Shown here: positions 4,516-41,158 of the stretch, piece by piece
Position numbering within the stretch: position 1 is the first letter of the stretch
How the letters are laid out: every line of letters begins with the position of its first letter
Assembly (NCBI RefSeq): GCF_012184415.1
Contig: NZ_VTOX01000003.1
Location: 372,001 to 436,000 of the forward strand
From: Ramlibacter lithotrophicus
Lineage (GTDB): Bacteria; Pseudomonadota; Gammaproteobacteria; Burkholderiales; Burkholderiaceae_C
Length of the DNA stretch: 64,000 bases
Direction: 5' to 3'
Translations under genes and position numbers: made by a program
Notes under the pieces: generated by a model
What the model saw: the letters and a program-made list of their open reading frames with translations, nothing else
Databases searched by the model: none
What the model was told of the DNA's origin: nothing

Positions 4516-5438
4516 GCGGCCTCCGCCGGCTGTCTGTTCTGCGACATCACGTCGAGGAACACGTCTTCGAGATCGGCCTTTCGGATCTCCACGTCCTCGA
4601 CGCGCAGGCCCGCCTCGCGGATCTCCGCGAGCCAGCGCTCGATCTCGAGGGCGTCATGGGCGGGCAGCTGCACGATGCGTCCCGTGACGCGCGCCCGTGC
4701 GGCGAACTGCGGCGGCAGCTCGCCGTCGACCTTGAAGCGCAGCACGTTGCTCGAAGCCGCGCGCAGCAACTCGCTGGTGCGCTCCAGGGCCACGACCCGG
4801 CCGGACTGCAGCATCGCAATGCGGCCGCACAGCGCCTCGGCTTCCTCCAGGTAGTGCGTCGTCAGCAGCACCGTGTGGCCTTCGCGGTTGAGGCGGGCAA
4901 TGAATTGCCACAGCGTCTGGCGCAATTCGACGTCGACGCCCGCCGTCGGCTCGTCGAGCACGATCACCGGGGGCTTGTGCACCAGCGCCTGCGCCACCAG
5001 CACGCGCCGCTTCATGCCGCCCGACAGCTGGCGCATGTTGGCGTCGGCCTTGTCGGCGAGTCCGAGGCTCTCCAGCAGTTCGTCGATCCAGGCGTCGTTG
5101 CGGGCCAGCCCGAAGTAGCCCGACTGGATGCGCAGCGCCTCGCGCACGTTGAAGAACGGATCGAAGACGAGTTCCTGCGGCACCACGCCCAACTGCCGGC
5201 GCGCGCTGGCGTACTGCGACTGCACGTCGAAACCGCGCACGGCGACGCGGCCGGAGGTCGGACGGGCAAGGCCGGCCAGGATGCTGATCAAGGTGGTCTT
5301 GCCGGCGCCGTTCGGGCCCAGCAGGCCGAAGAATTCGCCTTCCTCGATGTCGAAAGTGACGTCGGCGAGTGCCCGCAGCGCTCCGCCGCGGGCGACCTGG
5401 TAGGTCTTGGAGACGGACTGGAAGGAGATCGCGGGCAT
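4512..5438 (-). CDS. ABC transporter ATP-binding protein (YadG-like)
   Basis: A 308-residue ABC ATPase with Walker A GPNGAGKTT (residues 41-49), signature LSGGM (138-142) and Walker B VIVLDEP (158-164). The roughly 80-residue tail after the core is usual for ATPases that partner ABC-2 permeases. It powers the permease encoded immediately downstream with a four-base overlap. A start at 5438 gives MPAISFQSVSKTYQVARGG, aligned with the normal family N-terminus. A 58-base gap separates it from mlaB, but the direction is the same and read-through from the mla genes is likely. Confidence 0.9.
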   Translation of the reverse strand: MPAISFQSVSKTYQVARGGALRALADVTFDIEEGEFFGLLGPNGAGKTTLISILAGLARPTSGRVAVRGFDVQSQYASARRQLGVVPQELVFDPFFNVREALRIQSGYFGLARNDAWIDELLESLGLADKADANMRQLSGGMKRRVLVAQALVHKPPVIVLDEPTAGVDVELRQTLWQFIARLNREGHTVLLTTHYLEEAEALCGRIAMLQSGRVVALERTSELLRAASSNVLRFKVDGELPPQFAARARVTGRIVQLPAHDALEIERWLAEIREAGLRVEDVEIRKADLEDVFLDVMSQNRQPAEAA

Positions 5439-39856: not shown

Positions 39857-39862
39857 TAAAAT
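39857..39862 (+). promoter_or_regulatory. -10 candidate of metK
   Basis: TAAAAT matches the -10 consensus at five of six positions and would place the transcription start at about 39868-39869, exactly where the first stem of the riboswitch candidate begins. No convincing -35 hexamer is seen 17 bases upstream. Confidence 0.4.
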
Positions 39863-39867
39863 GAGCC

Positions 39868-39967
39868 GTCGCCGAGTTAATGAACTACTTGCAGGGCGAC
39901 CCAGAAATTCTGCTAAAGCGTTCGCCCAAGCTCCGGCAAAAGGCAACGCGCCTTCAAACCAACGGAG
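39868..39967 (+). promoter_or_regulatory. Putative SAM-II/SAM-V-like riboswitch with SD-sequestering stem in the metK leader
   Basis: Stem P1 is GTCGCC (39868-39873) with GGCGAC (39895-39900). Its loop pairs with downstream sequence to form an H-type pseudoknot: GCAG (39891-39894) with CTGC (39910-39913), and GAAC (39882-39885) with GTTC (39920-39923). The conserved-looking TTGCAG and GCTAAAG elements match what I recall of the SAM-II core. Downstream, CTCCG (39931-39935) can pair with CGGAG (39963-39967), covering the metK Shine-Dalgarno, with a nested AAGGC/GCCTT stem. GGGCGA (39894-39899) can alternatively pair with TCGCCC (39922-39927), giving a mutually exclusive fold. Placement before metK fits SAM sensing. 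Confidence 0.65.
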
Positions 39968-39976
39968 TTTATTCAA

Positions 39977-41158
<1,182 letters not shown>

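Follow-up and report, generated by a model that had tools for sequence, protein, structure and literature searches.

A SAM-II/SAM-V-like pseudoknot in the metK leader of Ramlibacter lithotrophicus and related Burkholderiales, with a predicted role in translational control

Layout of the metK leader

The window, a stretch of 64,000 nucleotides from the genome of Ramlibacter lithotrophicus (contig NZ_VTOX01000003.1, positions 372,001 to 436,000), carries on its forward strand the gene metK for S-adenosylmethionine (SAM) synthetase. The gene product matches TIGR01034 (E 2.3e-175) as well as the N, M and C domains of the Pfam S-AdoMet_synt series, and it is 95 and 94% identical to the MetK proteins of the two top-ranked named relatives, both Ramlibacter. 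Within positions 39857-39990 a -10 box is followed by an H-type pseudoknot and then by the start of metK. The features of this region, in window coordinates, are as follows.

39857 to 39862, plus strand: -10 box TAAAAT, 5 nt upstream of P1
39868 to 39900, plus strand: stem P1, GTCGCC (39868-39873) with GGCGAC (39895-39900), enclosing L1
39874 to 39878, plus strand: third strand GAGUU (GAUUU in canonical SAM-II), the putative pocket positions 8-10 in SAM-V numbering, with U8 replaced by G
39882 to 39923, plus strand: helix P2a, GAAC (39882-39885) with GUUC (39920-39923)
39891 to 39913, plus strand: pseudoknot helix P2, GCAG (39891-39894) with CUGC (39910-39913), and UU (U19, U20) just 5' of it
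39894 to 39927, plus strand: alternative pairing of GGGCGA (39894-39899) with TCGCCC (39922-39927)
39912 to 39918, plus strand: 3' core GCUAAAG with the equivalents of U47, A48, A49 and A50, in register with the RF00521 consensus
39918 to 39949, plus strand: antisequestor, GCGUUCGCC (39918-39926) with GGCAACGC (39942-39949), mutually exclusive with P2a and with the Shine-Dalgarno sequestor
39919 to 39986, plus strand: tail-to-start-codon pairing, CGUUCGCC (39919-39926) with GGCGAACG (39979-39986), part of the lowest-energy fold
39928 to 39970, plus strand: Shine-Dalgarno sequestor, AAGCUCCG (39928-39935) with CGGAGUUU (39963-39970), around the hairpin AAGGC-AACGC-GCCUU (39940-39954)
39964 to 39967, plus strand: Shine-Dalgarno sequence (SD) GGAG
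39977 to 41158, plus strand: metK

The letters of P1, P2, P2a, the CTCCG/CGGAG pairing and the GGGCGA/TCGCCC pairing were checked in the window. At the DNA level, the CTCCG/CGGAG pairing of the sequestor lies within AAGCTCCG (39928-39935) and CGGAGTTT (39963-39970). The junction between P1 and P2 is 9 nt long (39901-39909) and a P3-like hairpin is absent there.

A consensus scan that required a -35 box did not find a promoter in the window leader. A match to TATAAT in at least five of the six positions was present within 30 nt upstream of P1 in 65 of 76 leaders; in control windows placed further upstream, 5 of 304 reached this level. Hexamers of the -10 type scoring at least 4 occurred in 73 leaders, 60 of them at 6-7 nt from P1, and the TAAAAT of the window lies at 5 nt. 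Judged from these signals, the metK transcript probably begins with this leader, the expected start being close to the first aptamer base. The search for terminator-like sites near the window leader found none, and a transcription terminator within the leader was rejected on this result.

Conservation of the pseudoknot among metK leaders

With the MetK protein as query, 80 metK loci were fetched from other genomes; since they were taken as the best-scoring 80 of 592 relatives (at least 86% identity, mostly titled Burkholderiales), they represent close kin. The whole motif was present in 78 of these loci and no readable leader lacked it: one exception (L037) is cut by the end of its contig, with the 3' part visible, and the other (L061) has no leader. 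With the window counted, pattern parsing covered 77 of 81 sequences. The parse of L067 was misplaced, the motif being further on, and L007 and L030 remained unparsed yet contain the motif.

Alignment A1 was made from 45 of the 77 parsed leaders, with junctions of at most 11 nt and with L067 left out. Over P1, P2 and P2a together, 98.2% of its cells were paired against 91.3% in shuffles, and 48 cells were double-changed against 13.4; none of 500 shuffles, which ignore relatedness, reached either value. Six pairs were altered on both sides, and slid registers paired at only 27-50%. Separated by helix, the paired fraction was 98.1% for P1, with double changes in three of its six pairs, 99.4% for P2, with double changes in two of four, and 97.1% for P2a, in which one pair changed from A-U to G-C in five leaders of a GUC type that simultaneously are without the outermost P2a pair.

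Alignment A2 comprised 14 of 21 metK-linked elements fetched from other families, with four long-junction elements and three partial matches omitted. Here 95.1% of the cells were paired, compared to 89.9% in shuffles that likewise ignore relatedness, and four pairs were double-changed, none of them in P2a. P1 was 97.1% paired with double changes in two of five pairs, P2 was 92.3% paired with its third pair open in 4 of 14 elements, and P2a had the form GAC/GUC, paired at 95.2% with zero double changes. The segments UUGC and GCUAAAG were invariant in A1 as well as in A2. The GTCGCC/GGCGAC, GCAG/CTGC and GAAC/GTTC pairs named in the initial annotation all exist letter for letter, and the alignments bear them out, with double changes in P1, P2 and P2a in A1 and in P1 and P2 in A2.

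Because the shuffles of A1 and A2 ignore relatedness, a stronger test was given by model R2, which was built from the 14 metK leaders of A2 with the window's family excluded. In the 64-kb window R2 found a single match at E ≤ 10, located at 39867-39932 (56.8 bits, E 2.7e-15), and in the whole genome of 5.26 Mb it found at E ≤ 1 the metK and metX leaders only. The signal from the single sequence was weak: the window leader had a fold z of -2.13, with 7 of 200 shuffles folding equally well, and its antisequestor duplex taken alone was unremarkable, as 23 of 100 shuffles reached it. The ordinary antisequestor would suit a chance resemblance in one GC-rich leader, whereas R2, built without the window's family, finds this leader with an E value that leaves a chance origin a negligible probability.

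The strong sequence conservation, taken by itself, would also suit a site for an autoregulatory protein or a DNA operator, and an ATG at 39880 raised the question of a leader peptide. The leader peptide was rejected: an ATG in L1 occurs in just 21 of 76 leaders and the frames are not conserved, with variable lengths and all three phases relative to metK. Against any non-riboswitch leader stand the double changes in the helices, the position of the motif downstream of the -10 box, and junctions whose length varies among leaders between 7 and 105 nt. The junction measured at least 20 nt and was folded in 37 of 97 leaders (mean fold z -2.67 versus their own shuffles, 33 of the 37 below -1), with the pocket kept. 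We consider it very improbable that the conservation reflects a protein site, an operator or a peptide. As far as can be judged from these alignments, a fold consisting of P1, the pseudoknot P2 and P2a is conserved before metK across the relatives.

Ligand pocket, relation to known SAM riboswitches and distribution

In excerpts of the structural work on SAM-V (Huang and Lilley 2018, PMC6061858), U47 forms pairs with both U8 and the adenine of SAM, the sulfonium is surrounded by U20:A48.U9, and the amino acid end of the ligand is held by A50 in a pair with A18. The O4 atoms of U9 and U20 face the sulfonium and are said there to discriminate against SAH. On the basis of our own alignment to RF00521 and the text of that paper, the third strand GAGUU of the metK leader would be the equivalent of U8-U10. 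A pocket census covered 97 of 102 leaders that could be parsed with UUGC and GCUAAAG as anchors, so that the constancy of these two segments is partly built in. Position 8 was G in 94 of the 97 leaders and U in three. Positions 9 and 10 were U in 95 leaders each and U20 was found in all 97, the latter partly built in by the UUGC anchor. Position 18 was C in 91 leaders, where SAM-V has A and the Rfam SAM_alpha consensus likewise has C.

All 17 fetched elements preceding metZ, metX or metH have GAUUU; in alignment A3, which holds non-metK elements selected for GATTT, this segment is present by choice. A G at position 8 was also seen in some non-metK elements (L098, L104, L106 and L109). Since these elements have G and three metK leaders keep U, the change from U8 to G is not strictly bound to the gene. 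It affects the equivalent of the base that hydrogen-bonds U47, the partner of the SAM adenine (PMC6061858), and could point to a real aptamer of the same fold for another ligand, be it SAH, a SAM analogue, or SAM and SAH together. The loose coupling of the change to the gene, the retention of the SAH-discriminating U9 and U20 (with the above reservation for U20) and the nature of the gene, metK, argue against this, and we judge a different ligand unlikely.

At gathering thresholds, Rfam gave zero matches in the window. The SAM_alpha model (RF00521) aligned to a 101-nt piece of the window over its full length and in register, with 10.5 bits against a cut-off of 36. It scored L011 at 24.2 bits (E 6e-4), again in register, and in a 67-kb scan of 14 loci at E ≤ 10 it recovered 4 of the 13 metK leaders included, at 19.6-24.2 bits. 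No match to SAM-V, which we take to be Rfam RF01826, was obtained at E ≤ 10 in either the window stretch or the 14 loci, and the window gave no rows for SAM/SAH (RF01727), SAM-I, SAM-III, SAM-IV or SAM-VI. Because of the low SAM_alpha score and the missing SAM-V row, the element is not a registered member of SAM-II or SAM-V. The Rfam comparison thus went against the SAM-II cut-off and against SAM-V, while the alignment in register stood, and the TTGCAG and GCTAAAG core recognized in the initial annotation is present in register with RF00521.

The metK element shares with SAM-II the H-type pseudoknot, the UUGC and GCUAAAG core, the third strand in L1, P2a and the association with methionine/SAM genes. 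It differs from SAM-II, besides the score and the G for U8, in a P2 of four contiguous Watson-Crick pairs (among 18 canonical elements of the order, the third position is paired in 8), in having an SD switch and no terminator-like site, in the gene, metK, and in a P1/P2 hairpin in some relatives. SAM-V, in the available text of Huang and Lilley 2018 (PMC6061858), acts on translation through the Shine-Dalgarno sequence and has four Watson-Crick P2 pairs beyond U20:A48 and a hairpin P3. The metK element resembles it in a nearly identical predicted pocket, in four Watson-Crick P2 pairs and in predicted SD-based control, and the hairpin of the 37 long-junction leaders would sit where SAM-V is taken to have P3. 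In contrast to SAM-V, P2a has 4 bp (closer to SAM-II) rather than 2 bp, and the SD (39964-39967) lies outside P2a and is accompanied by a downstream antisequestor and an anti-SD, whereas in SAM-V it lies inside P2a. Furthermore, position 18 is C instead of A, and the hosts are Burkholderiales rather than marine alpha-proteobacteria and Bacteroidetes. The proposed SAM-II/SAM-V-like pseudoknot holds up in fold, core and metK context, and R2 finds the window leader with the high score given above. By its sequence the metK leader element is probably a divergent SAM-II/SAM-V subtype with a translational platform, which looks like the known members and probably works like them.

Small SAM/SAH aptamers have been found before metK in Rhodobacterales, according to the part of Weinberg et al. 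2010 available, and PMC7367207 and PMC10516623 describe the SAM/SAH riboswitch (RF01727) as an H-type pseudoknot acting on translation. The likeness to the present element lies in the small size, the position before metK, the fold and the level of control; the difference lies in the lack of an Rfam match of the metK leader to RF01727 and in the bacterial order. Separately, L067 carries an SAH riboswitch at 4603-4679 (63.4 bits), about 1.4 kb past the end of metK.

For beta-proteobacteria, excerpts of Leyn et al. 2014 (PMC4239095) state that SAM_alpha was found only in Rhizobiales and Rhodobacterales, describe a pseudoknot before metXZ, and report that metK is not under known regulators, attempts to find one being unsuccessful. 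As described there, the metXZ element resembles ours in being a pseudoknot at methionine genes of the same bacteria; it differs in being located before metX/metZ with a terminator, and metK is not covered. In the R. lithotrophicus genome itself, the metX leader (L081; G000:C4, minus strand, about 104341-104417) contains a canonical-looking SAM-II (27.2 bits, E 9e-4), followed by what by eye is a GC-rich hairpin and a T run. Because this leader matches SAM_alpha at that score, the pseudoknot that Leyn et al. 2014 described before metXZ probably belongs to SAM-II.

A footnote in Korniakova et al. 2022 (PMC8814607) mentions, as unpublished data, that suspected regulatory elements in the metK, metX and metZ 5'UTRs of B. 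thailandensis were confirmed. The likeness is a regulatory element before metK; sequence, structure, class and ligand are not given in the footnote. SAM-II in beta-proteobacteria was already known, as parts of Barrick and Breaker 2007 indicate, and a passage of a 2009 paper (PMC2704228) names Alpha-, Beta- and Gammaproteobacteria for SAM-II. The initial annotation had regarded a beta-proteobacterial metK version as an extension of the class. The presence of SAM-II in this group is not new, while a metK-type translational variant was not found described in beta-proteobacteria in the accessible portions of open-licence PubMed Central papers.

The distribution was followed with model R1, which was derived from A1 and consequently from metK leaders only; the genome scans, for R1 and RF00521 alike, used stricter filters that lose weak matches. 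When 120 genomes sampled evenly across the order were scanned at E ≤ 0.01, R1 matched 83 of them, with chance matches among the weakest. RF00521 at the same threshold matched 55 of these genomes, 20 of them above its cut-off; none of the 14 control genomes gave a match. R1 located an element at most 450 nt upstream of 34 of the 123 metK genes in the 120 genomes, and RF00521 detects one of these 34. Contexts were read for 60 of 142 R1 matches, the weakest of which include chance (L154): 23 were before metK, 13 before metZ-type genes (one called by profile, the rest by BLAST cluster), two before metH and two before metX. A model made from metK leaders alone thus recovers SAM-II elements upstream of metZ, metX and metH as well. 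Canonical SAM-II-like elements lie directly upstream of metH at L132 and L152, with one metH called by NCBIfam and the other by BLAST cluster. Among 299 genomes from the phylum, 26 were matched at E ≤ 0.001, 18 in the order, four elsewhere in the class and four in other classes. None of the nine places outside the order, where genes were named by eye, was before metK, and two (L173 and L175) resemble chance matches in coding sequence. One SAM-II match over the Rfam cut-off (G106:C28:29105-29177, 41.7 bits) lies 46 nt before metK and is a possible intermediate between the two types.

Tandem pairs of SAM-II-type elements were observed at nine loci (L104, L106, L113, L116, L119, L120, L121, L130 and L134). 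Inspection by eye places a terminator-like hairpin after the first element and the second element near an SD. Downstream are a small protein of ~95-112 aa, mostly starting with MYDC or MFDC, for which Pfam gave no match in four searched and NCBIfam none in three, and then a MATE-like transporter, identified by Pfam at two loci and by eye at seven. R1 pairs less than 300 nt apart numbered 13 in the 120 genomes. At L109 the tandem pair is followed at +169 by a 347-aa protein that by eye is HD/RelA-like and at about +1215 by a second, divergent MetK-like gene (53% identity), and at L105 (349-415) a tandem pair recognized by eye precedes a 167-aa protein that has no Pfam match.

Competing pairings and predicted control of metK translation

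Three partners compete for the 3' tail of the aptamer: P2a, the antisequestor and the coding region. The antisequestor GCGUU.CGCC/GGCAACGC, or an equivalent of it, was present in all families looked at, with strands that vary from family to family. Matched strands gave -13.65 kcal/mol versus -12.11 kcal/mol for permuted ones (n = 28), a value reached in 0 of 10000 permutations from which relatedness was not removed. When the spacer was shuffled, the antisequestors of 34 of 80 main-set leaders and of 5 of 21 leaders from other families beat 95% of the shuffles.

The CTCCG/CGGAG helix proposed over the metK SD is present, and the SD is less exposed than with a shuffled spacer: with the aptamer tail held, the mean probability of an unpaired SD was 0.15 versus 0.27 (n = 79, L062 having no SD). 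In the window its partner, AAGCUCCG, is flanked by the two antisequestor strands. SD exposure was 0.31 with the antisequestor enforced versus 0.16 with P2a held (n = 80), and 0.30 versus 0.13 in other families (n = 20; L108 was omitted and a rule was used to shift some start codons). This gap is partly a consequence of the constraint, since enforcing the antisequestor rules out the sequestor, and it was opposite by more than 0.2 in 7 of 80 and 1 of 20 leaders. Among single leaders the clearest case is L141, whose CGCTTCAGACTCCAA complements exactly, over 15 bases, the segment running from the SD into the start codon; the antisequestor of this leader uses the CGCTT part. Unconstrained and tail-held exposure were 0.142 and 0.151, which is no difference.

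As to the third partner, the unconstrained lowest-energy fold already hides the SD and the start codon by pairing the GUUC region of P2a with codons 1-4. The GCC/GGC part of this pairing (39924-39926 with 39979-39981) is compatible with P2a and the remainder competes with it. Tail pairing over codons 1-4 was rejected as a general switch because it is strong chiefly in the wider family of the window, most other families showing it only weakly. The GGGCGA/TCGCCC pairing put forward earlier as the disruptor of the pseudoknot is present, its GGCGA/UCGCC core being paired in 88.4% of A1 cells; one of the five pairs is double-changed, in five cells. Given these A1 values and the sharing of both strands with other helices, it was rejected as the main switch; the alternative found across families is the antisequestor.

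The codon usage at the start of metK bears on the sense of the switch. Where alanine is codon 2 after an GCGTTCGCC tail, it is encoded by GCG in 48 of 52 leaders versus 14.0 expected from the alanine codons of the same genes; in the comparison with neighbouring ORFs GCG was counted in 17 of 39. The bias is only suggestive because the leaders are related. Read from the sequence, it suggests a tail/start-region pairing that either coexists with a P2a shortened to three pairs, the form seen in the GUC-type leaders, or competes with P2a. The third base of codon 2 (39982) pairs with C39923, the outermost P2a base, and since it does so the bias favours a pairing that competes with the full P2a. This latter reading would favour a SAM-binding element of opposite sense, in which SAM pulls GUUC out of CGUUCGCC/GGCGAACG and frees the start codon; action via Rho or RNA decay belongs to the same alternative. 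The lowest-energy fold, with the tail on codons 1-4, is in line with it as well. However, the coding-region pairing is weak in most of the 21 leaders from other families and a long antisequestor is present in all of them, and P2a leaves room for what remains of the clamp, GCC/GGC. Activation of metK by its product would also be unusual in view of what is generally known of SAM feedback. We therefore see an opposite sense or another level of control as improbable, if less so than a change of ligand.

We prefer, with a probability of roughly three in four, to read the element as a translational OFF riboswitch of the SAM-II/SAM-V fold that senses SAM and controls metK in cis; both SAM binding and the sign of the response are predictions. 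Without SAM, the aptamer tail would be free, GCGUU.CGCC would pair with GGCAACGC once both have been transcribed, and the CUCCG anti-SD would be caught in the loop of the antisequestor hairpin, leaving the ribosome site open. With SAM, the tail GUUC would be held in P2a, making the antisequestor unable to form; GGC-AACGC-GCC would then fold alone, CUCCG would pair with the SD and MetK synthesis would stop. Overall, this would constitute a negative feedback loop on SAM. Since free and tail-held SD exposure do not differ, an OFF response requires the antisequestor to form co-transcriptionally, and because the unconstrained minimum-energy fold hides the ribosome site, the ON state would need to be reached during transcription. 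Counted against the OFF switch are that lowest-energy fold, the low SAM_alpha score, the pocket residue changed in nearly all parsed leaders, and detection of the element at only the minority of metK genes found in the 120-genome sample.

If the metK leader acts as such a switch, it offers an answer to the gap stated in the excerpts of Leyn et al. 2014 (PMC4239095), that of a beta-proteobacterial metK without a known regulator. The scans point to a large population of SAM-II-type RNAs mostly missed by the Rfam model, and the replacement of U8 by G, a naturally occurring alteration of a ligand pocket that has been studied in detail, can be tested directly. The tandem loci extend the predicted SAM regulon to an unassigned transporter operon. 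More tentatively, and with the odds against it, the Burkholderiales may hold a further member of the SAM-II/SAM-V superfamily, characterized by G8, a four-pair P2, an optional P3-like hairpin and an antisequestor platform. It would occur alone on metK and, after a terminator-type SAM-II, as the second, translational half of the tandems, forming a two-layer SAM gate on the MATE-transporter operon. The MATE transporter of this operon would then be methionine- or SAM-related.
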